Assembly: GCA_021234155.1 (NCBI GenBank)
Contig: JAJEKV010000003.1
Span: 20,010,386 to 20,074,385 of the forward strand
Origin: Isoetes taiwanensis
Lineage: Eukaryota; Streptophyta; Lycopodiopsida; Isoetales; Isoetaceae
DNA length: 64,000 nucleotides
Direction: 5' to 3'
Below are positions 4,923-36,515 of this stretch, in pieces (the first letter of the stretch is position 1; each line of letters starts with the position of its first letter). The notes beneath the pieces were generated by a model, which was not told where the DNA came from, did not search any database, and saw nothing but the letters and a program-made list of their open reading frames with translations. The position numbers and the translations under genes were made by a program.

Positions 4923-5334
4923 AACAAAGTTTAAAATGAAACGCACTTATTTGCTGCAAACACACTTCAAAAGGAATCTTTGAAAGATTCCCTAAGATTC
5001 CCTTAAAAAAGTCCTTTTTTAAGATTTTTTTGTGACAGGTGTGACAATTTAAGTAATTTAGGTACCATTTTTGAGGGGTTGATTGAACATAACTTTCATG
5101 CAAAAATTTTAAATAGCAATTTTCATCCTCCTAAACTAGAACAAAAAATAATTACTTTTATAGTGTAGCAAAAAAGGGGCAATAAAAAAATAGCAAGGGT
5201 AGTAGAGTGACAAAGAAGTGATATATTCATGATTGTGAAAATTGTACAAAATTATGAACAAAATTGTCAAAAATATAGGACATTTTGACAAACACTCATC
5301 ACCTGCACTTTCTGTTCTTTACATGTTCGAGTCA

Positions 5335-8328
5335 TCAGACAAACTTACATTTTGCAGCAAGATCAGGATGCATCTCATCGTCCGACTCATTTAATCCCTG
5401 ATCACTTGAGCCTTCATCCTCAGCTTCACTCTCAAAACTGGATGTACTCGAACGATCTTCTTCCTCACTGTCTACAAGTGAGTCTTCATCATCATCTTTT
5501 TTTGCCACCTTTCTAGGTTGTTTGTCTAATCCACATGCCGACTGTTTTTACCATCTCCAAAGTATAACTCCCACTGAAAGCATTGGCAGCATTCGTTCTC
5601 ATCCAGTGCACTTTTAATTGAGTGGGAATTCCATCCTCTCTTGTTACCTCCAGTACTTTAGCTAGCCAGAATGGCTTCCCAGATTCATCATTATCAGCTG
5701 GGACAGCTATGAGCATTCCTTTCTGAATCTCTGAGACTGAACCAGATACTCGAGCAACTTGTTGTGCTGTGCATCTGGGGCCAGTGTACATGACTCTGTC
5801 ATCTTCATCTGAGCTAGCCAATATCTCTACATGTTCCTCTTGATTCTCAACTTGCACAGGGAGAGTTTGCCTAGATGGCCAGTTGAATGTGGCGGTCTTC
5901 GACCTTGTAATGAAGCTTGCAACATGTCACGCGTTCTTGAAAAAAAACTGAGGCCACCATAAAGCATCGCCTCCCCAAAGTGGTTAGAGCACGACTGAAT
6001 ACTTGTCTCAATAAAATCCAATGATTTGTTTGAGTCAAATGCTCTTCCCTCTTTTTTACTCTTTGTGATTTCTTTCAAGCTTTTTAGAGGCATTTGCTCT
6101 GCAGAGAGCATGGAACTAGTATTGGGGATGGTGCGAATGAATTGAATACTGCTGGCTGGTCGCCATTTGCAAGGATGTGGCATATTTCTTTCCTTGTAAG
6201 ATGGCCTTGCCATCTACAAGTGAAATTTTGATCGATCTTTGAAATGTAATGTTTCTCAAGGGCTCAATAGCACAGTGACCCAGTTGATCTCTCCGAAAAA
6301 TCCATTCCTTGAAATCATAAGTTTCTTCTAATAACTCGATGTCTGGACGAGGATTGTAGGAATCTTGGATTACCTCAATCATTCTTTGGTAGGTCGAGTT
6401 TTTTTTCGAAAGCAAGACGTTTAGAGAACCTCTTTGAACATCTGATCAATTTGATCGTGTGTATGACCAACAAGCAGGAAACCAATCTTCACCTTCTTGA
6501 AGATTTGTTTCTCAACTAGCATAGCACAGTAAGCGAACAAGGCCCGATTCTTATTTTCTCTTGTCGTGTTGTCTAGCTGAAGATATAGAACCGGTGGTAT
6601 ATGTTCTAGATTGGAAAGAAGCTTAGTCAAGATTGTGATAGTGAGATTTGGATCAGCATGAATGTTTGGATAGTTCAAAAATACCTTGCAAGATAGTTTT
6701 CCATTAAATACCATAGCACCAACAACATGCAGGTGTATGAAATCTTCTTCAGCAGCATCCTTAGGCACATTGACAAAATGTGGTAGGGTGGTCTTCTTCT
6801 GGTCCATTCCATCAATAACCACCGATATGTAGTTGAGTGGTTGCTCCAATGCTTTCTTCCTATGTTTTGTCAATTTTCTCCTTTCTAAAGATTGTTGTTC
6901 TCTGTGCTTGTTCAGTTTCTCTTTCAATGCATCTGAAATGAAAACATGTTTAGGAAAGAACCTACTTTTAAGTAGAACTAGGCAAGAACACGTCCTGGAA
7001 GCTTACTTTTAGTGTGAAGTGTCCTTGCATTTTTTGTCTCGAGCTTTTAATTCAGAGCATGTAGCACAAACAGACATCCGGTGCTTTCTAGGAATGGACA
7101 CGCGAGAAAACTCTTTTTTCCAGAGCACAGTGAAGTAAGAGTAGCAGACATGGCGTTCTCCAGCCTCAACACACATGTCCTTATAATTATCGTAGACTTC
7201 ACGTTTCGTGAAGTTGTCACTCAAGTGGTACATGGGGCTGTTAGGGAGTTTTCATAAGACTCCTTAAAGAAACCTTCCATCCAGAAACACATTGAAGGGC
7301 ATGAATTCGGATATACCTCCCCGAATGGCGGTAGTCATTAATGCCGGATTCTTGTCAAGCCTTTTCTTTCAGCGGTCAAGTTAGATACGCTGCCTAAAGC
7401 ATGAATCAATTTGAAGGCCGTTTGGCCGGGGGCGGTGTGGCCACCACGTGTAAGTAAACCTTTCACCATAATCTGGCCTAATATTGAAGGCTAAGTAGCC
7501 CCTTTGGTCTAGCAGAGTCATTGAACTGTAACTATCACGAATCAACCTCAATTCCTTTAGTCCAATCTTAAGCAAACAACGTTGAGAACAACAGTGCTTT
7601 GTATGTGTTGCCCTCAAGTGAGCCTCGTCCATGAGTTTCTTTCTTCTAACGGTTGTACATGCTTTCTTGTGTAAGTTACGCTTAAGATTCTTACTTGCAG
7701 GGGCTTTGAATTCGAACATGGAGTCTTGTGGCTTTGGTAGGTCCTCGTATGAGAGATCAACATGAGGTGTTTCTTCGTCTAAGAGATCAACATGAGGTGT
7801 ACTTGTAGACGCTGAGAGGTTTGGTGTGGGCAAGTCCTGGGGGGAGGTGCTTTCCCTGTCTCTGGGAAAAAGTAATCGAGGTTGGTGACGTAGTTGACCA
7901 GCTCCTGACGTGTCGTAGAACACAGGAGTTGCGTGTCGCTGACTGCTCCCACTTGTTGTAGTACCATTTAGCGAAATGGATGGAGTTGGCGTGATTTGCC
8001 TCCGGGGATTTAGCCTACGGTGGACTATGGGCGACGTGCTAAAATGAAGTGGGGTAGGTAGTCTGACCTCTCTAACCTGTGGTGGAGTAAAACGCATTGG
8101 TGGGGGCAAACGACGTTCAGGAGCTGGGTGTGGTGGAGTAAATTGAACTGGTGGTGGAAGCCGAGGTGGTCGTGCTGGAGTAAACTCAACAGAGCTGGGG
8201 ATTTGAATATCGGAGGCAGAATTTTCGAGGCTACTTCCAGGTGTCAGTTGAGGAGGTGTGAATGTCATTGCAGGAGGAAGCCTGCGAACAGGAGTTGGAG
8301 GCTCTGCAGTTCTTTTTTCTCGAGCCAT
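5335..8328 (-). pseudogene. Transposase-like protein of element A (DUF7869-type core), frameshifted
   Basis: The start at 8328 (MAREKR) is preferred because longer frames run into the palindromes upstream. Order from N to C: a proline-rich region with repeated RLPPPVQFTPP-like units; a basic Cys block (KHCCSQRCLLKIG); a MYHLSDNFTKREVYDNYKD block; a possible zinc site (SVCATC); a 74-bp GT-AG intron at 6933-7006; the core exon; a further helical region; an RVMYTGP..KGMLIAVP..PFWLAKVL domain of Tudor/BAH-like look; and a strongly acidic tail ending near 5335. The core has VIDGMDQ, YLQLDNT and VGHTHDQIDQ, which fit the metal-binding residues of RNase-H-like transposases, as in proteins with the uncharacterised DUF7869 domain (family assignment from memory). 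Frames shift around 7260-7400, near 6420, near 5850 and near 5525. Element B carries a homologue in the same position. Confidence 0.75.
6421..6932 (-). other. Intact catalytic-core exon of the element A transposase
   Basis: The exon starts after an AG acceptor at 6933-6934 and is open for about 170 codons. Three acidic/His signatures are spaced as expected for a nuclease fold: VIDGMDQ at about residue 40, YLQLDNT about 80 residues later, and VGHTHDQIDQ near the end. This is the one long undamaged part of the gene. The corresponding segment is missing from element B, so A or a related copy would be needed to supply transposase. Confidence 0.75.
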
Positions 8329-8979
8329 ACTCAGAAAGTTAGCGTCACACTGTATAAATTTATACGACAGAAGAGCAGACGGTAAAAGTTTACACAGGGA
8401 TGGTATAAGGTTATACAGAGAAGGCAAACTTGAAGCGGCAGACTGTATAAATTTATACAGAGATGGTATAAATTTATACGGAGGAGGGCAACATAGAAAA
8501 GAAACGGTATAAATTTATACAAAAACTCACAGACAGTTGTATTGAAAACTTTATGGAGAAGCGCTATACGAAACGGCACTTAGCAGAGGTACTTAAGCCC
8601 GGCGCCGGCCACCCTATTTTCTATATACGCAGCTCGTTGTCGAAGGCGCTCGCGGTGCGGCTTATATACCCCCCCTTATTTGCTCTCTAGAACGTCTATA
8701 CGCGAGTCCATACTGTCATGGCCACGTAAGTCTACTATCCGTACTGTTTTAGTTTCTCTTTTGTTTTAATCTGTTAGAGTGTAAGCACCCACGGTATAAA
8801 TTTATACCGATATGGTTCTGGAGCGGTATAAATTTGTACCGCTCGTGCGGTATAAATTTATACCGTTCCAGAACCATTTCGGAATCTTGGTGTCTAGTGC
8901 TTAAAGAATGGTCCCGAATCTTAATATTTTCGTAATATTGTTGTGTTTTAAGCTTAAATGACATAAATAAAGTGTTAAT
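8329..8979. promoter_or_regulatory. Divergent promoter region of element A with palindrome clusters
   Basis: This 650-bp region separates the starts of the two divergent genes. It holds GTATAAATTTATAC at 8352, 8445, 8465 and 8507, an imperfect copy near 8402, and a second group of CGGTATAAATTTATACCG at 8792, 8824 (one mismatch) and 8848. The second group sits inside a larger inverted repeat (ATGGTTCTGGA near 8813 and TCCAGAACCAT near 8867). Each palindrome contains TATAAAT on both strands, so it could also serve as a TATA element. A role as binding sites for an element-encoded protein is inference. Confidence 0.6.
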
Positions 8980-10575
8980 TTGGTGTGGATTTTATGCCCT
9001 TTTAGCCTCTTTTTTTACTGTTTTTCTGTTTCAAAAAGTCGAAAAAGGTTCTGTTTCTTGTATAAAAATGGTTTTTTTTACGCTTTTTCCAGCCCTAAGA
9101 TCAAGTTTATACACAGAGGCCAATCATCAAAGGCTGCACCACCAGAGCCACAGACTTATGAACTAAAAGAACAGACTTGGTACGTCCACAGGGGCGCAAG
9201 AGAGAGCAAACCCACTGAGGCGTACCTTTACTTGTGCCATCAATCAGGGAAGGGCAAGTACAAGTCTGATGATTATTACCCTGCTGGCGAAATTATAAGC
9301 CTTGTTACTACAGAGAACGATGACGAAGTTTTGATGAAGTGCAATCATGACAAGGGGGAGGTCTACTATGTTCTGAATACTAGAATGCTTAGAATAAGCA
9401 TGTGCAAGCCCAAAGACGTGTATGATTACATTGCGGACAATTACAAGAACGGCTTTGTAAGTTATTCTTAGTTGCTTTCGTGTATAAATTTATACCGTCA
9501 TTCTCTTAACTTAACCGCATGACGGGGACATAGTAGAAATTTTGATGTCAGTAGTGCTGTGTGAAGAAAAGGTGTTGGTCAAGGGTCTATGGTTACCCCG
9601 TACTATCGAAGAGGAAGAGAAGGACGAGGAAGTAGTAGAAGAAGAGGAAGAGGAGGAACCAATGGTAACAAAGGGAAAGGGTAGGAAGCATTCCACGGTA
9701 GTAGATACAATGACCTCCTACCAAAAAAAACTAGAACCACAAAGTCCTTGACTATAGAGGAGTCAGCAGAAGCTCTTCAGAAGGCTCCTGGAGCAGATAT
9801 TGTTGTGAAGCCCGCAGATAAGTCAAGTGCTATTCTAAAACGGGTTAATGAAACTAAACTGCTCAAACAAACTATTTCTTTGACATTGAGCACTATAAAA
9901 AGGCCGCCTAAGAATGAAGATGGGGTCGAGTGCTTGGTCCGAGGAAGGTGACGCTTGCACATGTGGCTATACTGAAGCAAAGAATGAGAAGAAATCCTCA
10001 TGCCCATGTGTCGCCACTAGTTGTAATGGTGGACAGGAGTCAGTGATTATAAAAAGGCTGACTTTGAAGATTACACATAATTATGTACTTGGAGGCACAC
10101 ATAGTTATAAAGCACGGAAAGAACTTTCAAAGGAAGAAACCCGTAATGAAGTTTGGAAGACCGTAGAAGCACATATCTACGTGGGAGTCACAGACGAAGA
10201 AGCAAAGGTCATTGCCGTGAGTCATAATCTCGACAACGACTTCAGACTAAAAATGAGCCTGATAGACAAGATCCGCTTCATGCACAGGGAATACATAGAG
10301 TTCAAACAAATGTATGGGGAGGACTTCAAAAAACAAAAAAACAAACTCCAAGAACTTCGAGAAGCTTGTGTCACAGAGTGCTGCCTCAGCTATGATTCAG
10401 ACAAGAAGCCCATAATGGCTGTGAAGCAGTACGACAATCACTTCCAGCTTGCTTTCAGAGATGGTCAAGTAAGTAAAAGCTTTAATTTAGTCCTCTGTAG
10501 TATGATTAGCTTAGCTTAATTTGTGTATTAACACCGAACATTGTATATTAGTACCAACTAAGGAAGACCAGTCAA

Positions 10576-10788
10576 GGTATAAATTTATACCGTGACTGGT
10601 CGCGGTATAAATTTATACCGTGCCTGGTCGCGGTATAAATTTATACCCTGGCTAGTCACGGTATAAATTTATACCCTGAGCAGGCACGGTATAAATTTAT
10701 ACCGCATACCTTGCACGGTATAAATTTATACCGTGACTAGCCAGGGTATAAATTTATACCGCGACCAGGCACGGTATAAATTTATACC
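10576..10788. repeat. Eight GGTATAAATTTATACC palindromes in an intron, folding as a long hairpin
   Basis: Perfect 16-bp palindromes begin at 10576, 10604, 10632, 10660, 10688, 10717, 10745 and 10773, so the period is 28 (once 29) bp. The 12-bp spacers are variants of CGTGACTGGTCG. Units 2-4 with their spacers are the reverse complement of units 6-8, so the whole array is also a palindrome centred near unit 5. It lies in the intron between the ParB exon and the linker exon (donor just before 10468). Confidence 0.95.
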
Positions 10789-11856
10789 GTGCCTGGTCTT
10801 GCGTGTGCAATTAGACAGTATACTTTGTACGCCATTCAACACTAAACTACTTGTGTTCGATCATTCACAGGTGTGGGATCTTCAAGAAAGAATATTTTGC
10901 ATGTTCGAAGATGGTGAGCTGAAAGAACAATCCAGCTCTGCCTGAAAAAAACCAAAAAAAGGTGGTGAAGCAAAACAAAAAAACATGAGCATTGTACCCT
11001 GGACGCAGCTACAGGGTTTAAAAAGGAAGGAAATTTTTGTAAGACTATTAGAAAAAGTTGTGGCCAAGGAATTTACTCTAGACGAAATGGCCAAAGAAGC
11101 TAAGACGTAAGCAACATTTCCCATGTCGTCTTCTTTTTTTCCTAGTTTTGTCTGACATTTTTTCCCTCTGCAGTCAGAAAGACATTGTCACCTGCCAGGC
11201 AGAGTTAATGAAGCAACTAAACCTGGAGGCCTGGGAGGAGTGCAAGGCTTTGTATCCATCTTCTACTACAGATAGTATTATCAGAGAGCACGCTGTTAAC
11301 TTTAGTGGCTGGGTAAGTTTTTCAGAAAATACGTTTTGTTTTCGTGCCTTTGTCTCACAGTTTTCTTACAGAACAAGAAGAAAGGGCTACTGACAGGATT
11401 TTTAAAACTGGTTCGTAGGGCTAAGGAGGAGAGGCAGAGACTAAAGGCACTTGAGCAGGGAAAAGAAGTCGGCACAAGCAGTTTTGACACCAGTTATGAA
11501 CGGTTCACAACATTCGGTCAAGACTGCTTGTACAGGGTTGTTCATGGGGATTGCAAGAGGCTGGGAACTCTTTTGGACAAGCAAAATTATACATTGTGTA
11601 TTGCAGACATTCCATACGGGTTCAAAATTAAGGATAGCTCTTTCAACGAGGAAGCCTTCATGCACGTGCAAGTCCGTGCTTTTTTGGACGGCCTGAAGGA
11701 AATCACGACATCTGAAAACTGGAGGGTCATCATTTTTCATTCCGACCTGCAGACGATGTCGGTGCTTAAGCCAATGGGAGCTGTCTGTAACGCGGGCTTT
11801 GAAAACTGCGTATGGTAAGATTTGAATTTATTGCTTTTCTATTTACTTAACACCAC

Positions 11857-11986
11857 GGTATAAATTTATACCTCAGTCGCCTCGTGGTATAAATTTATAC
11901 AGCAAGGCAACCTTCGTATAAATTTATACGGCACGGCAATGTGGTATAAGTTTATACAGCAAGGCAATGGTGGTATAAATTTATAC
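11857..11986. repeat. Five GTATAAATTTATAC palindromes in the last intron of the element A methyltransferase gene
   Basis: Copies begin at 11858, 11887, 11916, 11944 (one mismatch) and 11973, a period of about 29 bp. Spacers are of the form AGCAAGGCAA. They sit in the intron between the exon with motif IV and the exon with motif I. Confidence 0.9.
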
Positions 11987-12729
11987 TGCCACACCACTGA
12001 ACTAACTTATTTTGTTCGTTTTCTTTCTACCAATTTTTAATTGCTTTTTTGTTTGGCAGGCTAAAAACAAATGTCAAAGGACATGGTGGTGGTCCGCTTA
12101 GTAAAAGTGCTTTGAACATTTCCATATAGGTTTTACTGGTAGCGGACACCAAAAAACCATGGTTCATTTCAATACGCATAAAATGAGAAGAGTCCACCCC
12201 GCAACGCCTTCGGTTTCCTACTGTTGCGCAAAAAATTAAGAGACCCACGGCGACAAGGCTGTGGTATCTCATTACCGGAAGCCCGCGGCTAATTAATAAC
12301 TTAATAAATGGTTTTTCGCCGGGAGACTGGATTCTAGATGCATTTTCTCGCTCGGGCACCACGGTGATTTCGCCCTTAGGGCGCAATGTTGTCTCCGTCA
12401 ACATAGACCCGGACAAAATAAGTTTCGTCAGGACAAGGATAAGCTCTTGTGAATCCTTTCCTGATGAAAACGAGGAACTGGGAGCAAAGAACGGTGCTGG
12501 CGATGTTAAAGGCACATACACAGAAATCCAGCCTCCACTTACGGGAAGAAGAGATGAGGAGGTGGAGTTTGTCGACCTGGAGCCTGTGGTGCCTAAGCCC
12601 GAGAAACAGCCTGTACCTGTGCCATTGGAATCAGAAGCAGGCGTCTCTGCTATCATACCATCACAAGAGTCAGATCCTAAGGGGTACGAGAGTCCTGTGG
12701 ACTGGGAAGACCCACCTCCTCCACCAGTT

Positions 12730-12743
12730 GTATAAATTTATAC
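12730..12743. repeat. Palindrome overlapping the methyltransferase stop codon
   Basis: The last codons are GTT GTA TAA; the GTA TAA is the left half of GTATAAATTTATAC. The same arrangement is found in element C near 36460, so it is conserved between the two copies. Confidence 0.85.
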
Positions 12744-13160
12744 AGTCAAGATTACAAACTAATTTTCATTGTAAACTATGTGCTAAGAAATATAACATAT
12801 TTTGATGATGATTTTTAATCTGAAAGCTTTGTCTCTTCAACAATGCTTAATTAGAACAACTCTTTTTTTCTCCATGATTTCACACTCTTTGTCTTTCCTA
12901 TGTTTAATTTTCTTAGTACTTATATTAAGCTTGCAAAAAGACAAACTATATTTCCTTCTATTTTCAACAATAAATACTTATTCAGTTTTTAAATTTAATG
13001 TCTCCCTCCTCAAACCAAGCTTTTTTTTCTTTGCCCTTTTTAAAAAATGAAAAGGCTTCAAAAATGTTGCTTTTTTGGGGGTATTTCGAATGCTAATTGC
13101 TTAACAATCTATTTTGCTCCCTATTTTGTCTGGTTTTTTCAAGTTTCCAATTTTTATAAA

Positions 13161-13213
13161 GGAATCTTTCAAACGCACTTCTTAAATAAGTGCGTTTCAT
13201 TTTAAACCTTGTT
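13161..13213. repeat. Right end of element A with terminal hairpin
   Basis: Inside the right terminus AAACGCACTT (13171-13180) pairs with AAGTGCGTTT (13188-13197) across a 7-base loop. The outer arm is part of the terminal inverted repeat. GGAATCTTTC precedes it. The left end has the GCAC motif as direct repeats instead, so the two ends are not equivalent. Confidence 0.8.
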
Positions 13214-15643: not shown

Positions 15644-16749
15644 ACACCCATGCTAGTCCACCAAGACTAACGTCCAAGACCACTCCCCCGAGCTACCATA
15701 TTCATAACAGACACCTATGGTGAAGAACCAAGGGAAGGACATTCATTGAACATCATACAAGTATGGCAAGGAGGTTGAGATTCAAGCAAGAAGAATTGAG
15801 CTTAAATTTGAAGACCCTTATGCTAGAGCTTGGAAGACCCCTCAAGATTCATTGGTATGTGGCTAGATCCAAGTTATTTTGGCATGAATCCTATTTCCCA
15901 ATGCTTCTTTCGTGTTCCTACCATCTTGATCTTATCCAGGAAACACCCTTCATGCTTCATAATTCCTATTTCCAAGCTCCATCACCATATTCCCTAGCCA
16001 AAGTTGGCAAAAGTCTTTTTTTCTAGTCAAAGCACATCACACACCCATCATTCATCCACTACCTTGAGAAAATGCAAAAAACTTCACCAAAGTTGGCTAT
16101 TCTTAAGGTTTAAGACTATTTTCTCCAAACAATTTTCTCCAAACAATTTTGAAAAAAGCAAATTTTCCAAGTCATTGCACAAAGTTCTGATGTGTATGTG
16201 CACAAGTGCCAAATATGATGCCAAATCATCCACATCATCTTCAAAATTTCAAATATCATCCACATCAACACCCAAGTACATCCACATCACCATACACATG
16301 TCATCCACCTCATCACCACTTCACAAAAAGTTTTGACTAGAAAAAGTCATTTTGCCACCTTACTTGCCACATCATCACCTCACTGTGCCATGCCCATTTG
16401 CCACATCACTCCATAAACTTGCCATCTCATCAAAATTAGCCTCATTTTTAACCAAAAATCAAGATGCTCTTTTTTGCAAAAAGATTCTTCCATCCTGTAG
16501 AGCATCAAAAAATATTCCTTGTGGAAAAAAGAATTTTTGAAAAAGACCTTGTTATTACCTTCATATTTCATTTTTTGAAAACCGTGCCAAATTTTGACAA
16601 AAAAAATTCCTACCCCCCCCCCCCAACCCTACCGGGGCCTAGTCACTCTGTCCCCCAATCATCCTCTGCCACATGGTAAAACCGGTCGTGTGGAGTGGCA
16701 ACGGGCCATTACCCATGTGGAGGCAATGCGTAATATTAATAATCCACGT

Positions 16750-18564
16750 GGATTATTCTTTATATAACCAGAGCTTCTTTTTTGAATCAAGCTTGTGGGA
16801 TATTTCTTGGTTTTTTAAAGAACCCTAACACCGAGAAGGCCAAGAAATGGTTTTTTTGTTGGATTGTGAGCCCTAATCATAACTTGAAGGGGCCGAAACT
16901 CTCTAATTCATGCCAAGAAAACAAGAACACTAAAAACGAACGAAATCCATGGATCTTTGCAAGAATAGAGCAAAAACATGGTATTTTGGAAAGGGGTTTT
17001 TGTGACAGAGTTTTTCGACGGCTTTGAGCAAGAAAATTGACCTACACACCTTTGGTATTTGCCGGATTGACTTCATCTGCTTGAATCCACCTTCATTGCC
17101 TTAAGAAACATGAGTTTATGAGGCAAATCTATTGAAATATTTTGATCCTGTACCCAAGACATCAGAGCTTGGGATTGACTGAAATATTGTTGTATTATAT
17201 CTAAATGAATGAAAATCCATCCTCTTGGCAAAAGTTGCACATCTATTGCAAGCTAAGGACATCTAAGGAGTGAAAATTTGGCAAAAGAGCAAAATATGGA
17301 GGAAGAAAATTCTACTACCCTTGCAAAAAGTTGAAGTAAGTAAATTACCTTTTCAAGTTACTGTTGCATTACATAAAACAAAAGAAAGAGTAAGTTTGAG
17401 TATTTTATCTTTGCATTTGAAGTCATTAGTTTAAAGAAGATCAACTTAAAGTGGCATACATCTTGGGCATACATTAGGCACTCAAGAGTCAAACACGTGT
17501 CTAACATATCGTGCGTATATCTATCCACTAAAAAACATAAAAAAAGTTCTCAGAGAGTAGGAATTCCAAAATCCAATAGATCAGAATCTATGACAATTGG
17601 CCATTGAAGAAATATTTTATGGAAGCAAACTAAAAATCTTTTGGCCAAATCTCTTTGATGGACCTCTTGTGCAGTCTTGTCAGAGTTGTTAGAAGGATTC
17701 AGAAGTGAAAATAGGCTAAGCCATTTGTTCTGTCATACTTTATTGTAGGCCTGGCCCCCCTTAATTGAAGGTCAAATCAATCGACATCGAATGAAGCTCT
17801 TGAAATTGCCACCAACATCTATCTCCATTATAATCTTTAACCTCCCCACCCAATTGCAGGTGGCTTCCTGCCGATTATGATCGGCAACACTTGATTGAAA
17901 CTCCATCGTGAATATAAAAATCAAATTATATCAAAATTCAACTGCAGAAAGTGATCAAATGAAGAAGCCAATTGACTAGATTTACATAAATGGCAATGAC
18001 AATTCCCATTGCGCATCCTATTTTTGTTACATCATATTCTTGATCAATGCTTTGATCTAAGAGATAGGTCGTACATGATATGTAGTGAGACTGCAAGAAA
18101 GCTCATATCAGGTCAACTTTAAGTCTCTAAAGCTTGTTCTATTACAGATTTGTGTTGCCGTTGGCAGAATTTTCTTGTTCTTTGGACAAATTGGAAGTGC
18201 AAAATCTTACTAAACTGGAAAGACATGAGAAATGAGGACTGTTTTCCAGGCTAAGAATGAATATTAGCTATGTTTTCACTAGTAGCCTATATTATACATA
18301 TCTAGGAGTATCTATTGTGTTTTGCTGCTAAATTGTGAAGCTAGAATATAGAGGTTATGATATATGCAGTTAACTCTTAGGTCTTACATCATAGGCATCT
18401 TATATTATAATGTTTTGTAATGGACCACGCCCTAATTTGAAGGGCTAAGATTGTCTTTGCCTAATCTAAAGGCCCGGATTTGCTCTAGGGTTCGCGAGGG
18501 CAGCTGTGGTTGAGATTTGATGCTCTAGAGTTCACAAGGGCAACCTTCGATGAAAACTAGAGGC
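16750..18564. other. Non-coding part of duplicated block, copy 1
   Basis: Only short frames are present. A CCACGTGGATTATTC box and TATATAA near 16745-16765 resemble a plant promoter (G-box-like CACGTG followed by a TATA box) about 1.8 kb upstream of the TPR/J pseudogene. No further motif is recognised. Confidence 0.3.
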
Positions 18565-19400
18565 ATGGCTTATGCGGATTATTTGTATCAAAAGCTTGAA
18601 TCTAAGCTGCAGAAAGGGGATTGCAAGGCAGAGTATGTGGGTCTTTGTTAGAAATAGCAGAGGATCACACGCATGAATCTGCGCAACAATTTTTACAAGA
18701 AATCAAGGATTTGAGAGTTAAAATTCAAGTCAAGCTCCCGCTCTGCAAGGCTATGGAGGCCAGAGAAGCAGGGGATTTGATTCTAGAAAAGGCGAAATGC
18801 TAAGGAGCAAATAATACTGCCAGATCAGAGCTTTTCCTCTCCGCCATAGACAAATTCAAAGAATCGGAAGCCCTGTGCAGAAAAAACAGAGATTATCACG
18901 CCCAAGCTCTATCTCTGCTCAGCATCGCCCATGTCTACAACGGATTGTCCATGGACAAGCAAGCAGAAACCCACTACCAGAGTTGCATCGCCATAGCTGT
19001 GAATAATCTGGGCGATAAATCTCCGGAGCCCAAATGGGTGAAGGATGCAAAAATCAATCTGCAGCGAATTGTGCAGAAAAGAGGAAATCGAAGGGCGAAG
19101 GAAAACGATCAAAAAGAAAACATGGTTCAGGGTTTTGTATTGCCTGCCGAAGCTAAGGAGGTCCAAAGAGCCCATGCAGCTATGGCGCCTAAAGCTTTTC
19201 TCAGGTATTTGTATTCAAATCATCCCCCAAGAAAAACCAGTGGAGAATTGGGCATCGCCCCAAAGGTTGCTCTGAAAAATGCCTACCGGAAGGCCATATC
19301 TCAGTACCATCCGGATCATTACTCTGACACATGAGGCTGGAAAATCGTTGCCGAGGAGATCACAAAATATTTGGTCATGAATTATAACCGGCTTCAGTGA
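18565..19400 (+). pseudogene. TPR/J-domain (DnaJ-like) protein, copy 1, broken
   Basis: The reading starts MAYADYLYQKLESKLQKG and shifts frame near 18635 into a helical region (SAQQFLQEIKDLRVKIQ) with a TAA at 18801-18803 that is a Leu codon in copy 2. It continues through ALSLLSIAHVYNGLSMDKQA and ETHYQSCIAIAVNNLG, the spacing of a TPR-like hairpin, to KNAYRKAISQYHPDHYS, the C-terminal part of a J domain including the HPD-like HPDH. A one-base shift near 19332 moves the end, WKIVAEEITKYL, into another frame with its stop at 19398-19400. J domains stimulate Hsp70 ATPase through the HPD loop. No introns are seen, so it may be a retrocopy. It is non-functional as read. Confidence 0.65.
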
Positions 19401-20277
19401 AGAACAGGGGTTTTTGTTTTTCTCAGATATTAACCATGGGCACTTTGACATGCTAATGCTTTGTTTCTTGAATGCGATCTTTAGCAAAGCCGGCTTCAGC
19501 AAACTCTGTCTTTCCAGTGTCGATTTCAGCCAGTGTCTTTGTTTTTGTCGATTTGAATGGTCAATATCCAGCCATGGGGTTAAGCCCTCTTAACCGGCAG
19601 GCTTTCAGATCAGCGCAATCCTGGCCATTGATTGCTGCTCTGTGATAGGGCATAACAGGCAAGTGGAAACAGGGAAGAAGAGCAGCAGTGTTGCAACTTT
19701 GCCCTGGATTCAGCTTCGGGAGGATTTTTTGCCCTGGATTCAGCTTCGGATGCTGATAATCCAGGCTAGGACTTGATAACCGAGCTCTGGACTCCTGATA
19801 ATCGATCTTTGGCCCTCCGAAGCTGTGATAACCGAGCTATGGAAGCTCAGATCCTAGGTATGGATGAGGCAGCTTGCCTGCCCGGTTCCGGGCGAGCCCA
19901 TTTATCTGAGGTAATGGGCGAGCAGGGGTGTTTATCCCCTTCTTAACCAGCAGGCTTTGGGATCCAACCGTTGCCCACCGTTGATTGCAGCCCTGTGATA
20001 GGCCATAACAGGCACCCAACCCACTTCGCAGGGATGAAGAGGCAGCTTAGAACGCGGAAACAGGCAGCATCAATCTTTGTTTGCAGCTTTCAGCATTGGA
20101 TTCAGCCTCGGAGCTGATAACTTAGCTCTGGAAGGTGCCGAACCTATGATAATCTAGCTGTGGGAGCTGATAATCATGCTATGGGAGATGATAATCGAGC
20201 TGTGGGTGCAGGAATGGGTGAGGAATCTTGCCTGCCGGTTAAAGGGGATAAACACCCCTGCTTGCCCCTTACCACTG

Positions 20278-20483
20278 TTGGGCAAATTCCGGGGTAGAGA
20301 AGGTTTGTTCCGGTTGAAACTAAGAATTTCCGGTTGAGTTAGCGCATTGCAGGAAAAATTCCGGTAGATTTTTATACATATTTGTATAAGAGTAATACAA
20401 ATTTCCGATTGGGAACTGAAAATATTTGGCTATTTGATGAGAGAGTAGGAAAATTTCCGATTGGGTTTAAAAACTTTGCCCAA
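20278..20483. mobile_element. 206-bp MITE-like insertion with 5-bp duplication CACTG
   Basis: It begins TTGGGCAAATTCCGG and ends TTTGCCCAA, giving a 9-bp terminal inverted repeat. It is flanked on both sides by CACTG (20273-20277 and 20484-20488). The interior repeats TTCCGGTTGA / TTTCCGATTGGG motifs and has no coding capacity. It sits inside one arm of a larger foldback. A related copy is in the second duplicate near 59688-59876. Confidence 0.65.
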
Positions 20484-20488
20484 CACTG

Positions 20489-20550
20489 CCCCTTACAGCA
20501 GATAAACGGGCTCGCCCCTCCGGGCTCGCCCATTTATCTGCTGTAAGGGG
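20489..20550. repeat. 29-bp-arm perfect or near-perfect hairpin
   Basis: The left arm 20489-20517 starts CCCCTTACAGCAGATAAA; the right arm 20522-20550 ends TTTATCTGCTGTAAGGGG, with a 4-base loop. It is the centre of a larger foldback whose outer arms are GGGGATAAACACCCCTGC (20243) and GCAGGGGTGTTTATTCCC (20553). A second such foldback, half deleted here, lies near 19880-19945 and is complete in copy 2 at about 59240-59345. Confidence 0.8.
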
Positions 20551-22050
20551 CTCGCAGGGGTGTTTATTCCCTTCTTCTATTCAGGCTTCCGTTGGAGGAT
20601 TTGTTCGGCATCATTGTGGCGGCGGTCTCTGGTTGCGATTATGGCATCGTAGCCCATTTCTTCTACATCACCAAGAGGTTGGCTATGGCGTTTCTTCTTC
20701 TTTTACTGACCCCAGAAACTGTCTCAAAAATCATCTAAAAAGATTCGGCAGTCTGCTTGCTTTTCAAAAACTCTGTTTAGTCCTTTTATCTCTATTTAGC
20801 TCTACCTTGGCATACAGAATGGAATCTCTTTTGAATTCTTTTACCTCCGTTTACTTCTACCTCTCTACCTCTGTTTAGTTTCACAACATATAATGGAATC
20901 GATTTAAGATTATATCATTTCGGCAAAGAAAGGAGCAGAAGGAAACAAAGGAATCAGAGGATTTGGCAGCCGAATACAGAGGATTTGGCAGCCAAATACA
21001 GATCAAAGATATTAATTATACAGATCGAATTTATTCACAGATCATGAGGTTTTCTAGAGTATTGAAGCAGGGCAGCTAACCTAGGATTGATACTCTATTC
21101 TTATAAAACCGTTCCTACATGGCCGGAAGAAAAAAAAGCAAGGCTCATAACGCTTAGATGCTACTACAAAGAAGCATGGGAAATCTAAATATGGAAGGAT
21201 GCTAAACAATAATGCAAACATCAAGCGCAACTCACGAACATTTAAAGCGAAAATACTCAGGTTTCAGTTGTTTTGTCTCTATGAATTGTTTTATGAATGC
21301 TTATAATTTATGATTATCTAGCTTACAACAAAGGGTTTGCTTTATTGGAAATTAAAGTTGGATTCATGTGTTGTATTGTAGGAAATAAAGATATGCGCAA
21401 ATGGAATAAAGATATGCGCAAATGGATTTCCGAGATTTCTGGTATATAAAAGTCTGCTTGCATACGCAAATATGAGTGATCCTTGACATTATGATCATGT
21501 TCTTTATGTATTGACAGAGGCATTATCTGACAGGCTTACCTATTAGAAGCAATAGAATTGAAAGTAGCATGCGACTCAAGAACTGAAAAACAATGCATCA
21601 CACATTGCCATAATATAGAATATGAGGTTTGACATTCTCCTTGATCTGTTTGGCAGACTGCTTGCTTTAGATTTGTAATGCATGCTTTTTTTTCCCATCG
21701 GTGTGATTCATTTTTTGTTTCTAATGCATATGTTTTATGTGTATTGCCATTGCAGACAAAAGAAGGGGAGCACATCTCTCCATTTGCTATGTTAGAAGAG
21801 CCGATATCTACAAAAAGCTTCCAGGATTTCGTGAACATAGGAGATCCAGGCAATGGGACATTTCATAATTCAGGTCTTTGATATGTTTGAGCAGATGCAA
21901 CAATCCATCCAAATATTGATGTCTCTCTTCCATTTCTTACAACACTTAAAGCAAATGATGCAGTTCTATTCTAGCTTATTTTCATTCATGTGTAGAAACT
22001 GCTAGATGGTTGATGAAATACCATGTGTTTTACTAAATGTGCTCAAAAAT

Positions 22051-26338: not shown

Positions 26339-26807
26339 CATTAACAAAGTTTAAATTGAAACGCACGAATTTGCTCCAAACGCACTTCAAAAGGAATCTT
26401 TAAAAGATTCCCTAAAATTCCCCAAAAAAGGTCCATTTTCACGATCTATTTGTGACAAGCGTGACATTTTGGACATTTTAGGTACCCTTTTTGAGGGGGT
26501 AATTGAACTTAGCTTACATGCGAAATTGTTTATTGCCCCGTTTTGGCCCCCTAGTTTGGTATGAAAAATACTAACAAATCTAAATACAATAAAAAATTTG
26601 ACATTGAAACAAATAGCAATTCCACTAGAGCAACAAAAGCATATAATATTCAAAGTTTTTAAAACCATTACAAATTTTTAAACAAAATTGTAAAAAATGT
26701 AATACATTTGACATTCTGAACAAAGTTATATTTTGCGGCTTTAATTTCCCCCACATTTGTTGGACGATATGAATTTGAAGCATAGGTGAGCTCAAGAGGC
26801 ATATAAA

Positions 26808-27182
26808 AATATAAATTTATACCACGTGAGCTCAAGCAGTGCACGGAGAGACAACTCGAGCGGTATAAATTTATACCGCCTGTAAGCTCAAGCGGTATAA
26901 ATTTATACCATCACCCCACAGGAAAAGAGCGGGAGCAGTATAAATTTATACCGACATTTTTTTACACGGGAAGCCACGATATAAATTTATACCGCGAGCT
27001 CTCTTTAGAAACGTTTTGCTACAACTCTAGTATGCTATAACACACAAAAAAATCATTTATATAAAACTATCTTCATGGTTATAACGTGACATTGCATAGA
27101 TATAACATGCCATGGGTTGGTTAAAACAAGGCAAAATATGTTCTACATCTCGTTTTCAGCTTGACGGTATAAATCTATACCG
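26808..27182. repeat. A-type palindromes in the left part of element C
   Basis: Copies of GTATAAATTTATAC, some with one mismatch in the flanking pair, begin near 26809, 26861, 26894, 26938 and 26979; a variant, GGTATAAATCTATACC, lies near 27166. Between them the word GAGCTCAAG recurs. They occupy the place of the divergent promoter of element A. Confidence 0.85.
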
Positions 27183-27879
27183 AGACTAGGAAATGTTTTT
27201 GTGAAGGAAGCTTTGGGATTTCTATATTCTAACGAATGCAGGAGTTTGTTGATGCTGGAGTTTCTTAGAGCATGAGTTTCTTCTGAAAGTGGAAGAAAAA
27301 AACATTTAGGGTTTTGTTGATGCGGCCAGTTTAGGGTTCGTGCATATGCATATGAAGGACGGAGGCGCTGGATCAGAATGAGAGATGGAGTAGCAAAGTA
27401 ATGTTGCATGCTCCTAGATCTTCTCATAGCTACTAAACGTTCCTTTTCATGCCTAGAAATCTTGCATCAGTTTATACGAGTTTTGCATCTTGGCTCTGTT
27501 TTGGCACAACCCTGAGTTTAGTTCCTGCCCATTCATGGATCTCTTGTTATATAGAGAAGAAATAACATTAGAATAGCCGAAGATTCACAAAAGGCCACTG
27601 GAAATTTGAATAGTTGGAACGCTGCGCAGCCATGTGTTAAGGTGCTGCTCTACGGATCAATGATGCTTCAGGAATAGGAGGAGCTTTTTCTTGTTTTTAT
27701 GCTGCTCATTTTGGAGACTATTGCTAGTATATTCTGCGGGGCTGAGTTCACATTTTGGCAGTCGCTGGAGAAGAGCTCTTCTAAGACAACTATCCACCAT
27801 TGCCTGAGAAGAGCCTTTTTCTACTTAAAGGTAAAAAAAAGTCGGATGTTTTTTTTGTAGTGCACTGTCCTCTGAAGTT

Positions 27880-28302
27880 TAGGCATATGCAGAACCTGTA
27901 GAAGTAGCAGTTGTGGAAGTAGCTCCTGTTGAAGCAGCTGTGGAAGGTGCACAAGCTCCTGTTGAAGCACTTGTCCATTGAAGAGCCTGCCCAAGTGACA
28001 CCAAAGGAAAACGGTGCAGCAGTTGCTGCGTTTTTGTATTGGGTCCCATAGACCGATTGGTCTCCGTGGACGATAAAAGTACCTTCCTTCCTTCCTTCCT
28101 CTGCTCCTAGACCTTTGTCTCCCTATGCTAGGGTATGTCTCTTAAACTTGCTCTACATATGTCTAGATTAAGATCATTTTGTTTCTATACTTGCACCAAA
28201 TCTGTCTAGATTAAGATCATTTTGAATCTCATTAACCAACTTTGGTATGCAGTATCCTGAGTTGAAACCCCCATCTTCGCCAACTCCTTCCAGGCCTTGC
28301 TG
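27880..28302 (+). pseudogene. Captured exons with FNR-anchor motif (TROL/TIC62-like C-terminus)
   Basis: A Val/Ala/Glu-rich stretch (VEVAVVEVAPVEAAVEG, about 27895-27960) is followed near 28105-28132 by APRPLSPYAR at a GT donor. After an AG acceptor at 28252, YPELKPPSSPTPSRP (28253-28300) ends in a stop. Joined in phase, the two match the PLSPY-x2-Y-x-DLKPP-x-SP-x-P signature by which the thylakoid proteins TROL and TIC62 bind ferredoxin-NADP reductase. The upstream reading has stops, so this is a fragment. It lies between the ends of element C, so it was captured, or C formed around it. A (CCTT)n tract near 28083 adjoins the first exon, and an 18-bp inverted repeat (GCTGAGATGAGAACTTTG) follows the second. 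Confidence 0.6.
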
Positions 28303-28960
28303 AGATGAGAACTTTGCTCGAGGTAAATTTTTACAAAGTTCTCATCTCAGCTCTGCTCCATTAGTTCTTGCAGTAGGAGAGAGATTCCATTGAGAAATGG
28401 ATCAACAAAAAATAGCTTTAACTTTTCAGGAGAAAGACCTTGGCAGCGTAAGTGAGATTGGCTTTTTGAAGATTCGAGAAGGTTCCACTTATAACAAGAT
28501 TGCATTTGAAACGGGAGCAAATCATTGAAACGGGAGCAAAAGGAATATTCCTTAAAGATTTCCTATTTTTTTTTTTTGCAAAAAATGGCTAAAAATGAGG
28601 TGGTAAAAAAAAAAGGGGGCAGAAAAATGTATTTTGACCCCCCAAAATCACCAATCTTTTTCTCCAAACAGAGAATTGTCTATGTGAAAGTGACACTTTT
28701 TTTTGGAATTATAATTTGCCTGAATTGTCTTTTTGGAGTAAACCTCTAATTTAAGAGAACACAAATTTTGACCAAAAATCGAAGTGAAGTTTACAGCAGA
28801 AATAGTAGTATTTTCAAAATTGAAGATAAAATCTTCATATTCACATTCAAAATTTATTTCTTTTTTCCTAAGACTCAGTTATGTGCAAAAGTGTGAGGAG
28901 TGATAAGAGAGGGATCCAAGACATCTTAAATTGCTTTCGTTTATGCCATCATCGTCGGTT

Positions 28961-31261
28961 TCACTTCTTTTCAGCATCACTTGAGGAAGTGCTTGAGTTA
29001 TCTTCCTCATCACTATCAACCGACGGTGAAGCATTCCCAACCTCTTCTTCATCTTCTTCTTCGTAGTTACAAGCCTTCTTAATCAAGTTGATTGTTCTCT
29101 GGCGTAAACGATTGTCTGATTTCAATTTGAAATCATAGCACAGAATACTCACTTGTCGTAAGTCTAGCTCATCCGCATCCAACTTTCTTGGCTTTTTGCC
29201 CTTTCCTTGACTTCTCATTTCTAGCTCATACCTACCTTCAAAAGCATTTTCTGAACGTGTAGCAAGCCAATGAATCTTGAGTTTAGTCACCATGCCTTCC
29301 TCTTTGATTGTGTCAAGTACTTTGGCTATCCAAAAAGGTCTCCCCTTGTCATCCTCCTCAGTCGGAAGAGCAATCAACATACCTTTAGTAATTTCTGTGA
29401 CATTACCTGTAGGCTCATTCCTGCGTCTTGGACCGAGGTACATGACCCGGTCCTCATCTTCTGTCTTTGCGGTTTTGCTCTTTGCGCAGCAATGCTTTGA
29501 CTTTTGCACGGTTACGTGGTTGGTGGGAAGCATTAGGCCACTTAAAAGGTTCTTGCAACTGCCTCAGAGCTAGGTTCTGAATCACAGTCTTTTGTTCTAG
29601 AAAGAAGCCTCTCCACCACATTTGATCTTGTTCAGTGAAGTACTTAAAACCCGTGGAAATTCCATTTTCAATGGATTTCAAGGAAGTGACCTTCTCTCAG
29701 CTGCTTGTTGGTCACGGTGTCTACCAAGCTTCTGTTGCACAATGTCTGTTGAAGGAAGCAGGTCAAAACAATTACATGATGCAAGTACGAGAATGAAGAA
29801 CTTAAACTTACTTTTTTCGAGCTCTGTCCTTGCAGTTTCTTTTTACTCTTGATTACAAGACACGTTGAGCACCACGGACATTACAGTGTCTTGAGGAATT
29901 TTTACAAGGCCAAATTCAGTTTTCCACAATCTAGTGAAATGTGAATAAGAGATATGCTGAGATTGACTGCATGTCTCTTTGTATTCTTTGAAAACATCTT
30001 TTTTTGTGATGTTATCTGTCAAGTGATACATATTGTTGTTTGGCAATTTTTCACACGTTTCTCTGAAGTATTTCTCCATCCATGCCACAACAGCTAGGGC
30101 ATGCATTGTTACAATTCTTCCAGGCCCACAGTGGTCATCAATGCAAGGGTTTTTGTCTAATCTTTTTATGTATTGAGACATTCGGAGGAACCCAGCGGTG
30201 GCGACCATGAAGCATTTTTGACACACTTCTTGGCGATTGATATAGTGCAAGAAGTTGTGCCATCGGTCTTACATGATAAGCCAAGTAGGCATTCTGTTCT
30301 GAAATTGTCATAGAATTGTAATGGTCTCTAATTGCACGAAGTTTAGCCATGTTGAATTTGCTAATGCATCCCAACGAACAGCATGTAGCTCTGAGAATTT
30401 TTCTCATTTTCTGCTCGTCCATCAGATTTCTTCTTCTTATGGAAGAACATGCTCTCAAGCTGAAATCTACTTTGAATTTCTTAGAAGATTGGTTAGAGAA
30501 CATATAATCTCGTTGTTCCTTGTCAGGGTCTTCATCCTCTGATGAGAGTTCCACTCTAGGAGTGACCTCCTCTTCTCTTAGTGGTGTGTTTCTGGAGGAA
30601 AATAAACCACGTGACACAGTACCCAGAAAATTCGGAGGGACAGTGTTAAATGTAGGTGATTGGCCATAGGATGATGTTGCTTGATTGTGTTGGCTAGGTG
30701 TCGTGTCAAACATTGCTCTTATTGATGTTTGAAATTCTGCAAACCCGTGTGTCACAACATTTATGGGAGGAGGTGGGGACCCTACATTGCCTACAACAGC
30801 GTCTTCATTTGTGCACAAGTCATGGTGAGAAAAGTCATGGAGAATTTCACATTCTTGTGGGCGTGTTGCAGACCTTGTACTTGTTCCTGCTACAAATAGT
30901 GGGGGCAGTCTTTGTCGAGACATCTGTCGTCTTTGCAAAGGCATCTGCGCAGCTTTCGGTGATGGTAAAAAGGAGGTGGTAGCCCTCAGGTATGCAGTGG
31001 AGATGGAACGAAGGGAGAAGGCAACCTACACTTGAAAGGGCTCGGGGAGGGTTGGAAAGGTGGTGGCAGTCTACTATGTGATGGACTTGGAGAATCGTCA
31101 AGGAGTAACAAGGATGTTGTAGAGGCAGGAGATGAGGAATCCTGGGCACCAGGCAAAAACACATGCTCATTGGGCGTTTCCTCTGAAGTAGAGGAACTCG
31201 GTGCCACAAAAGGTGGTGGAAGTCTGTTCTGGATGCGATTAACCATCTTCAAACACTTCAA
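28961..31261 (-). pseudogene. Transposase-like protein of element B, catalytic core deleted
   Basis: Homologous along its length to the element A protein: an N-terminal proline-rich region with RLPPPF units (31261-30986, continuing in another frame from 30944); CSLGCISKFNMAKLRAIRDHY; RQEVCQKCFMVATAGFLRMS; NMYHLTDNITKKDVFKEYK; and a GT-AG intron at 29746-29811. After QQKLGRHRDQQAAERR the text jumps straight to LKSIENGISTGFKYFTEQDQ, so the exon that in A holds the Asp/Asp/His-Asp motifs is missing. The C-terminal domain (DRVMYLGP..KGMLIALP..PFWIAKVL..LKIHW) and the acidic Ser/Glu tail are complete, ending at 28961. Frames also change near 30950 and 30200. Catalysis is not possible; DNA binding might persist. 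Confidence 0.78.
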
Positions 31262-31846
31262 CTAGAAGAGAGACGGAAGCAGCTTTTGCACGTTTGCTAT
31301 TCGAGAATACGAAGTGTCAAGCCAAGGAGAAGTCTGCTATTCCGGAATACAAGTTAGCACACATTTTGAACCAAACGTATTCCGGTATACATAGAAATGA
31401 ACATGTGTCTGAAGTAGACCTTTAAAAAGGAAATTTGTGGCGCTCATTCGTGTATTCCGAATTCGTTGCTCCAGGCGCTCCGATTTAGCGCCTTCAAAAA
31501 CTTCTGCTCGACCTTATTCCGTTTTACATAGCACGCAGCATGGAGAGGTAAGGGAAAAAAGTACAATGTACGGGCAGATTCTAGAAATGTGGTTTGGGCG
31601 GAGGCCGAAGTGTATTCCGGAATACACTTTGGCCTTCCGCGCTCAACAAAAGTGTATTCCGGAATACACTTTGGCCTAAAGCGCTAGGCCAAAGTGTATT
31701 CTGGAATACACTTTGGCCTTCAGCTCAAACTACTTTTGCTACAAAAATATTAAATTTAGTGCATTTTTAAGCGCTTTAGCAGTAAAATGTAGATGTTTTT
31801 ATTCCGGAATAGACTTTCTAGTTTACTTTGCTTTAACTAAAACAGT
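31262..31846. promoter_or_regulatory. Divergent promoter region of element B with its own palindrome
   Basis: TGTATTCCGGAATACA occurs at 31611 and 31653, with a one-mismatch copy at 31695. These three are embedded in a longer palindrome, GGCCAAAG-core-CTTTGGCC. Diverged copies lie at 31297, 31337, 31377 and 31798. Position and clustering match those of the A-type palindromes between the divergent genes of element A. Confidence 0.65.
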
Positions 31847-34800: not shown

Positions 34801-35186
34801 ATGCTTTCTCGGGCCTGGTACAACCATTACTGCAAGACTTAAAAAGGCGAAACTGTGTAGCAGTGGATGTAGACAAGGAGGCCGTGAATTTCATTAAGAT
34901 GAGATTGGCTGCACTACCTAGCTTACCAGACGAGAATCAAGAGCTAGGTGCCAAATCCTCATCTGACTTTGCCAAAATGACATCGTCCGAAATACAGCCT
35001 TCTTTTACCAGCTCCACAGAGGATGAGGTCACTTTTGCTGAGCTGAAGGAAGTGGCTCTAGTAGTGGAAGCAGAAGACAACACTACAAAGCAAAAAGCTA
35101 AATCACCTGAGAAAGAGAAGCCTGCTAAGGAAGACGTTGCAACTACAAGCACACGCCATGGGGAGGACTACGAAGTTGATCTTTGA
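31847..35186 (+). pseudogene. ParB-like domain plus beta-type DNA methyltransferase, element B
   Basis: Exon 1 (to about 32632) holds the WYVTRGFAGKYSN domain and an acidic, Pro/Lys-rich linker. The next exon (about 32656-33231) has an intact ParB-like domain: PPKDDTGERPLQVRNIYADH, then APIVVLVDRSQ, and HYVLGGNHSFKARRQL in place of the ParB GxHR box, followed by the conserved helical segment with LKMSFVDKIRFMHREY. Linker exons at 33435-33665 and 33760-33898 follow. The methyltransferase exon from 33973 reads into DIP and YGF (motif IV, DPPY type) with two extra T's around it. After an intron come KPLKLINQLIDMFSRQG and DAFS/GPGTT (motif I) with a one-base loss between them, then AVDVDKEAVNF. 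The end is YEVDL at 35186. The three damaged spots are homopolymers, so sequencing error is possible. Confidence 0.75.
33243..33342. repeat. B-type palindromes in the intron after the ParB exon
   Basis: GTATTCTGGAATAG (33244, two mismatches), TGTATTCTGGAATACA (33295) and TGTATTCCGGAATACA (33327) lie in the intron at the same place as the eight-copy array of element A. Single diverged copies are also in later introns, at 33715 and 34455. Confidence 0.85.
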
Positions 35187-35647
35187 CTCCTTGTGAGAAA
35201 TATTTTTCAGATTGGTATCTTTTAAAACTGATATTAAAATATTTATTGATTTTAATATTATTTATTCCCATCAATTTTCCTATTTCCTTAGTCTTGCTTG
35301 TCTACACTACACAATCAACTGTAAATTTGGCCCTTTTCCACCAACAGCTGACAGATTATTCTAGTGTTATAATTAATTTTGCCTTAAAAAATGATGTATT
35401 TAAAATTTCTAATTCATGTACTATTATTATTTCATTTAAACTAAGATGTTTTTTGTTGTCTTCATTTCATGGATTGCAAAGTCAACTGTAAATTTTGCTC
35501 TTTTAGGCTATGATATTTCATCAAATGTAAATGTACACTTGCTGAGAGGTTAAAAAGCAAGAAAAAAAAATTTTTAAGCTCTCAAAATACTTTGACTCGG
35601 CCAAAAAGTTCATTTCTGGGAGGATGCCATGTTTTTTTGAGGGAATC

Positions 35648-35695
35648 TTTGAAACGGGAGTTGTGCAACACTCCTGTTTCAAATGCAACCTTGTT
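35648..35695. repeat. Right end of element B with terminal hairpin
   Basis: TTTGAAACGGGAG (35648-35660) pairs with CTCCTGTTTCAAA (35671-35683), one mismatch, inside the right terminus. It is the counterpart of the hairpin at the right end of elements A and C although the sequence differs. Confidence 0.75.
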
Positions 35696-36426
35696 TTATA
35701 CAGACATGCGCAAGGAGATTGAGAACGATGTAACTATGTTGTTACTTTCAAAAACTCTAAAGTTACTTAAGGTGTAATAATGGTCTCAATCCTAGTGTAA
35801 ACCTTCATCTCAGCTGTGGCACAATGGTACAATCCAGGACGAGAAGTTTCGCATATGCTAGCCAAAAGGAAGCATGGCCCATCTGCAAAAGTGTTACTGC
35901 CATGTGTTATGTGCTTATTCAAGGTTCTGCAACACTGCAACTGCCAAGGAGTTGGCACTAATTGAAAACGATCACATGTTCTTTTGATTCAAAGTAATAT
36001 GTGTGTTGGGGTTTGTAAGAAAAGGTTAAGGTTCCTTTCTAATAAAAACTACAGAAGATTTAATAGGGTTCTTCCATTGTCGTTTCTTGGTAAGCTCTTT
36101 TTGTCGTCAAGTAAACTTTTTTTGCATGTCTTGATTGTCAATTTGATAATTTTGTGTAAACTTTGGTCTTTCAAGCTTTGATTGTGATTGGATTGACCAA
36201 ATTCGAATTTATCATTAAGTTCTGCAGTTAATTGGTAGCTAGAAAATATTCATATTAAACTTGAAGATTTAATCAAATTCAAGATGTCTTTCACAAGCTC
36301 CAAAAAGTGCTAAATACAATAAGCAGGCTGAAGTACTTCAAATTATCAAACAAATGCATACAGAAGGAATGCATACAGAAGAACGACGCTGGAGACATCA
36401 AGGAAAACAAAATGTCAAGGTGATGA

Positions 36427-36515
36427 GAGTCTTGTGGACTGGGTGGACCCACCACCTGTGGTATAAATTTATACCGATGGGTTTTCATTTCAACCTGTCG
36501 GTATAAATTTATACC
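36427..36515 (+). pseudogene. Remnant of A-type methyltransferase C-terminus and two palindromes in element C
   Basis: ESLVDWVDPPPVV followed by TAA parallels the end of the element A protein (SPVDWEDPPPPPVV). GGTATAAATTTATACC overlaps the stop codon, and a second copy lies near 36500. Nothing else of the gene is left upstream. Confidence 0.7.

Follow-up and report, generated by a model that had tools for sequence, protein, structure and literature searches.

Palindrome arrays in DNA transposon relics of Isoetes taiwanensis are candidate target sites of a phage-type ParB-methyltransferase

A stretch of 64,000 nucleotides of the Isoetes taiwanensis genome (assembly GCA_021234155.1, contig JAJEKV010000003.1, positions 20,010,386 to 20,074,385 of the forward strand; hereafter the window, with positions counted from its first base) contains the relics of two related DNA transposons, elements A and B, and of a further relative of A, named A'. 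A and B each encode a likely transposase and, diverging from it on the opposite strand, a protein predicted to join a ParB-like domain to a phage-type methyltransferase, and each carries an array of palindromes of its own. We regard it as an even call that this protein bound the palindromes of its own element and methylated DNA there, the mark resisting silencing by the host. Transposon-borne ParB-methyltransferases are an already known kind, because Sola1-1_Ec32 and the algal cases cited with it are reported to carry such genes (PMC12477816), and the likely target sites are the new part.

The inverted repeats at the termini of A begin with AACAA and are 96.7% alike across 30 bp. Exact 4-bp target-site duplications flank all three elements (TTGG for A, TTAT for B, and CATT for A'), with the outermost bases of B placed by their similarity to the AACAA termini of A. 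A 4-bp duplication is a feature of the Sola1 superfamily, and this is the length found in three of three elements. A (8.3 kb) and B (7.2 kb) are probably Sola1-like relics. The ends of A' resemble those of A (72.8% over 372 columns on the left and 84.9% over 93 on the right), and its coding interior is mostly unrecognised. The sequence-only reading of this DNA had described a spliced gene within a DNA transposon and a second copy of it; both descriptions hold, the second copy lying in an element of its own. The features on which the text relies are as follows.

4923-13213: element A, DNA transposon (inverted ends and TTGG flanks)
26343-37017: element A', relative of A, containing B (inverted ends, CATT on both flanks)
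28493-35695: element B, A-like layout (inverted ends, TTAT on both flanks)
5516-8328, minus strand: DUF7869 gene of A, likely transposase (PF25273 match; exon limits approximate)
28964-31245, minus strand: likely transposase gene of B (homologous to the A gene; limits approximate)
5516-5926 in A and 28964-29563 in B, minus strand: conserved C-terminal domain of the likely transposase (from the comparison of A with B)
8329-8717, no strand: divergent intergenic region of A, with four exact palindromes and one variant
8718-12735, plus strand: ParB-methyltransferase gene of A, spliced, with six frame breaks or in-frame stops
9093-9456, plus strand: exon 2 of A, N-terminal domain of about 100 residues (25% identity to B)
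9942-10468, plus strand: exon of A with the ParB-like domain and the first part of the helical linker (box LGGTHSYKARKEL at 10088-10126)
10469-10870, plus strand: intron of A with eight palindromes GTATAAATTTATAC, spaced 28-29 bp
11372-11815, plus strand: methyltransferase exon of A with the predicted catalytic motif ADIPYGF (11603-11623)
11816-12060, plus strand: intron of A with four exact palindromes and one variant
12061-12735, plus strand: last coding part of A, with motif I DAFSRSGTT (D at 12337) and the tail
31540-35186, plus strand: ParB-methyltransferase gene of B, with four breaks, starting at ATG
31298-34467, plus strand: palindrome sites of B, TATTCCGGAATA, 12 in number, none in an exon

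The palindrome of the A array is GTATAAATTTATAC, with 20 exact copies of TATAAATTTATA, and that of the B array is GTATTCCGGAATAC, with 12 sites of TATTCCGGAATA when up to two mismatches are allowed; A' carries the palindrome of A. When extended, the two palindromes both match GTAT-N6-ATAC, which occurs 34 times in the window (22 of them in A and 6 each in A' and B, none elsewhere) against 0.59 expected and did not occur this often in any of 100 shuffles, a count that rules out a chance origin of the palindromes but overstates the evidence for shared half-sites, because the array copies are not independent and the common pattern was picked after both consensus sequences were known. Where gene models exist, the sites occupy the promoter, the introns, and the end of the methyltransferase gene. 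None of the 20 exact A sites lies wholly inside an exon, all 12 B sites lie outside exons, and one A palindrome (12730-12743) spans the stop codon. The divergent promoter holds five sites in A, including the variant, and three in B. With up to two mismatches allowed, a site of the own family is present in all eight introns of the methyltransferase genes that are at least 76 bp long (4/4 in A and 4/4 in B, counting the A intron with an unclear acceptor) and in none of the three introns of 56-72 bp.

Alternatively, the transposase or a transcription factor of the host could bind the palindromes, which would then control the divergent promoter and the gene, and the ParB-methyltransferase would have its role elsewhere, for instance on intermediates of transposition. 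The clustering of sites in the divergent promoters of A and B would fit this, as would the conserved C-terminal domain of the transposase (53% over 85 codons). We nevertheless consider it unlikely, if a serious contender: the transposase half of A contains no exact site (about 926 non-coding bases, compared with about 2081 on the other side, with approximate exon limits), and the ends, on which a transposase has to act, contain none: the site nearest to an A terminus lies about 470 bp from the right end.

The gene assigned to the transposase has a DUF7869 match at 6424-6999 in A (PF25273, E=7.2e-39) and is taken as the likely transposase because of its position in the element; DUF7869 as a term was not found in the literature searched. 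The match of the homologous B gene is limited to residues 4-44 of the 193 residues in the A piece; the gene is without most of the DUF7869 region, so that B would hardly have been self-mobile in its present form. Three pieces of the two genes are 41, 52, and 53% identical. The C-terminal domain has no convincing Pfam match. Close to the element ends, GGAATCTTT-like repeats were noticed by eye at about 4970-4979, 13160-13169, 26390-26399, 28540-28549, and 35640-35649, and these are possible transposase sites, separate from the palindromes.

The arrays resemble those of the Arabidopsis VANDAL elements, where the VANC protein binds short motifs that are tandemly repeated in introns and between genes, with differences from one related family to the next (PMC5735166; PMC10398659). 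A and B likewise carry element-specific arrays of a motif, placed in introns and intergenic DNA, and this pattern suggests that the protein binds and marks the element encoding it. For VANC, binding was demonstrated, whereas A and B show the arrays alone, and the passages on VANC in these papers mention no methyltransferase domain, unlike the protein predicted here.

By this analogy, we infer that the ParB-methyltransferase bound the arrays and methylated its own element. The elements carried two divergent genes, one for the likely DUF7869 transposase and one for the phage-type ParB-methyltransferase. The latter protein would bind the palindromes of its own element by way of its ParB-like and helical region; the central bases of the site may be set by the N-terminal domain, which evolves fast. 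DNA of the palindrome-bearing element would then be methylated, more likely at adenine N6, and the mark would distinguish the own copies from other DNA. Its most likely purpose would be to resist host silencing of the promoter and the gene, a VANC-like use of family-specific arrays. In a more specific form, which we put forward tentatively, a phage-derived ParB-methyltransferase might read 14-bp palindromes accumulated in the promoter and introns as ParB reads parS, the outer GTAT and ATAC being kept and the central six bases changed, with the result that each family would mark its own copies and no others. Self-marking had already been proposed in the sequence-only reading; the element-specific arrays in the divergent promoter, the introns, and the gene end speak for it, but the idea is not new (PMC12477816).

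In Ectocarpus, the transposon Sola1-1_Ec32 carries, opposite its transposase, a gene for a protein of 1104 amino acids with a ParB-like domain and an N4C/N6A methyltransferase; the authors propose that binding and modifying the transposon that encodes it may be the role of this protein (Dinatale et al. 2025, PMC12477816). The elements described here are alike in being DNA transposons with a ParB-methyltransferase gene on the strand opposite the transposase, whereas, compared by description, Sola1-1_Ec32 is larger (21.5 kb, versus 8.3 and 7.2 kb and a protein of about 900 amino acids here). Similar proteins from green and red algal transposons are cited in the same paper (Iyer et al. 2011; Petroll et al. 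2025). Self-modification is suggested there for the algal elements, the passages concerned name no target site, and the word palindrome is absent from the main text. We have seen no palindrome arrays described for such elements, although no dedicated literature search was made. The arrays provide short exact candidate sites, two related ones with differing centres, and binding and specificity are therefore directly testable. If the proposed account is true, the protein would be an enzyme-based counterpart of VANC action and would offer a locus-by-locus entry route of N6-methyladenine (6mA) or N4-methylcytosine (4mC) into a eukaryotic genome.

Other mobile elements carry DNA-modifying enzymes as well. 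The fungal TET/JBP elements are likewise DNA transposons, but their enzyme is described as a dioxygenase acting on methylated cytosine and not an amino-methyltransferase (PMC12730594). Retrotransposon DNA methyltransferases (DNMTs; PMC5890265) and the methyltransferase (MT) domain of DIRS1-like elements (PMC3266345) also combine a mobile element with a methyltransferase, but these are retroelements, with C5-cytosine enzymes or an MT domain of unknown function, and ParB is not mentioned in the passages concerned.

Such precedents also bear on the direction of the effect, since the enzyme might mark its own element to silence or limit it, as a control of copy number that reduces damage to the host, or to regulate transposition. 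Retrotransposon DNMTs are reported to methylate CG de novo (PMC5890265), and the N4CMT of bdelloid rotifers is described to place 4mC on transposons within a silencing system (PMC8885841). The likeness to VANC favours anti-silencing, by analogy only, and the anatomy of the elements does not tell the two possibilities apart. We judge this alternative to be unlikely.

The assignment of the C-terminal domain as a beta-class amino-methyltransferase is based on motif order and on profile comparison. Motif IV (ADIPYGF) precedes motif I (DAFSRSGTT), which is the beta order, as the sequence-only reading had stated; the motifs which it listed were all recovered where it had placed them (LGGTHSYKARKEL at 10088-10126, ADIPYGF at 11603-11623, and ILDAFSRSGTT with its D at 12337). 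The profile-profile search and the structure prediction that it had proposed came out unequally. A profile of the A and B methyltransferase parts aligned over 190 columns with nine phage ParB-methyltransferases (97.2% by hhalign, with E=3.7e-11 holding for this single comparison; 0.2% for a reversed control), and the structure models were of low confidence. Two of the nine phage proteins match N6_N4_Mtase in Pfam (E=7.7e-28 and 1.4e-26); their ParB_N matches have E=2e-9 and, under the cut-off, 9e-5. All five phage records matched by the motif IV exon are annotated as methyltransferase or ParB-like (E 0.06-8). Single exons match UPF0020 (E=8e-4) and N6_N4_Mtase (E=0.0095, covering the last part of the profile, positions 170-213 of 221), with scores that exceed chance but stay under the curated cut-offs; for both domains the profiles match more strongly than single exons do.

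Judged by sequence, the nearest relatives found are the phage ParB-methyltransferase fusions. These proteins (PMC12704722; Anaerosphaera phage XPP58267.1, Streptococcus phage QBX31340.1, and Gordonia phage RedWattleHog gp206) likewise have a ParB-like N-terminal domain followed by a beta-order methyltransferase, and VLAGNHTVKA of RedWattleHog corresponds to VLGGNHSFKA of B. They differ by their length of 411-444 amino acids, the absence of the extra N-terminal domain, a shorter linker, and a DPPY motif. Bacterial N6A enzymes have DPPY and N4CMT has SPPY, the domain having evolved either specificity repeatedly (PMC8885841); because of the D in the D-I-P-Y motif, adenine N6 is more likely than cytosine N4 to be the modified base.

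That the domain is an RNA methyltransferase, or is inactive and only binds DNA, seems quite improbable to us. It would agree with the FSRSG of A, where R replaces the first glycine of FxGxG. However, the motif I part matches the DNA adenine methyltransferases MboIIA (E=0.03) and, with a score well short of the cut-off set for the model, CcrM (E=0.0026). N6_N4_Mtase is also present in the fused phage relatives, and D-I-P-Y is whole in A; in B, D-I-P-Y and motif I are each divided between neighbouring frames.

The ParB-like domain, which the sequence-only reading had described as fused to the methyltransferase in the manner of phages, is likewise supported. The ParB exon of A matches PHROG 723, a 'ParB-like partition protein' (E=1e-4, below the curated cut-offs), and in tblastn eight phage records (E 0.2-0.8), seven of them annotated as ParB-like or as DNA methylase/methyltransferase and two representing the same phage. 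The combined A and B profile reached 89% (E=2.2e-6; reversed control 0.1%) against six actinophage proteins, which were drawn from five of these eight records. The ParB box reads GTHS in A and GNHS in B, compared with GNHT in five of the six actinophage proteins and GHQR in one. By sequence match a ParB-like domain is present, for A and for the combined profile, with a weak match for B alone.

For the roughly 100 N-terminal residues, profile searches of Pfam, PHROG, and the PDB found no known relative, as the sequence-only reading had anticipated; the three PDB entries returned all belong to one unrelated protein (E 0.17-0.23). Between A and B this domain has proportions of nonsynonymous (pN) and synonymous (pS) differences of 0.56 and 0.68 at the 25% identity listed above, and the ParB, linker, and methyltransferase parts are 57, 51, and 41% identical. 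Over the whole gene (839 aligned codons, unfiltered), pN is 0.42 and pS is 0.79, which is near saturation, and the three codon positions differ at 392, 318, and 554 sites. In the 469 codons left after a local-identity filter, which is biased toward conserved parts, pN is 0.31 and pS is 0.84, with pN lower than pS in 300 of 300 bootstraps. The ParB-methyltransferase gene was under purifying selection in the past. The comparable identities and the pN and pS values therefore indicate that both genes were long maintained and have diverged about equally, with most change in the N-terminal domain. This similar divergence of transposase and ParB-methyltransferase is as would be expected from joint descent.

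In both genes the first exon is only 8 nucleotides long (8718-8725 in A and 31540-31547 in B), which corrects the earlier placement of the gene start near 8980. The encoded protein has the order N-terminal domain, ParB-like domain, helical linker, and beta-class amino-methyltransferase, and the A and B proteins, read through with X at the breaks, are 36% identical over 903 columns (E=7.8e-157). Six introns were modelled in A, five of which have a counterpart bordered by GT and AG in B; the sixth (about 9457-9532) has an unclear acceptor and no counterpart. The phage-type domain fusion might raise the suspicion that the assembly contains bacterial or phage DNA from contamination or recent transfer, but this is very unlikely given the five introns common to two diverged copies, the inverted ends, and the duplications, and no close relative was found in the viral or prokaryote contigs searched.

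Several points weigh against the account of a ParB-methyltransferase that bound and marked its own element, besides the dependence among array copies and the possible other binders of the palindromes discussed above. Of the 12 B sites, only 6 are exact matches to GTAT-N6-ATAC, and by a rough estimate two unrelated palindromes would have such half-sites in common in roughly one case out of 100-250. Both ParB-methyltransferase genes are broken as assembled, with six breaks in A and four in B, so that neither copy is intact, and together with the mostly missing DUF7869 region of B they give no sign of present activity. The ParB exon of B matches more weakly than that of A (PHROG 723, E=0.34; DUF6551, E=0.011), and its tblastn search of phages gave one record (E=0.9), annotated as hypothetical protein and terminase. 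The combined ParB profile reached 0.6% against the first phage family tried, of nine proteins, and the phage proteins in the profile comparisons were chosen because the exon searches had matched them. At E<=1e-3, no relative of the ParB exon was found in viral contigs (with A alone or with the alignment of A and B) or in prokaryote contigs, and a PDB search with the ParB profile gave no match. The arginine of the ParB GxxR motif is required for nucleotide binding (PMC12704722); it is absent from A, B, and five actinophage proteins, as their boxes read GTHS, GNHS, and GNHT, with serine in its place in A and B. Structure predictions were of low confidence for the ParB exon (two sequences; predicted local distance difference test [pLDDT] 39.6) and for the motif IV exon (with 22 phage proteins; pLDDT 47.1), and a fold search with the latter model gave 76 matches, none at E<=0.001 and with no methyltransferase among the 50 listed.

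Rfam and tRNA scans of the window gave no matches. Outside the three elements, a direct repeat pair (16132-22047 and 55529-61142, about 39 kb apart) is 88-98% identical in three pieces and contains open frames, for example at 18804-19334.

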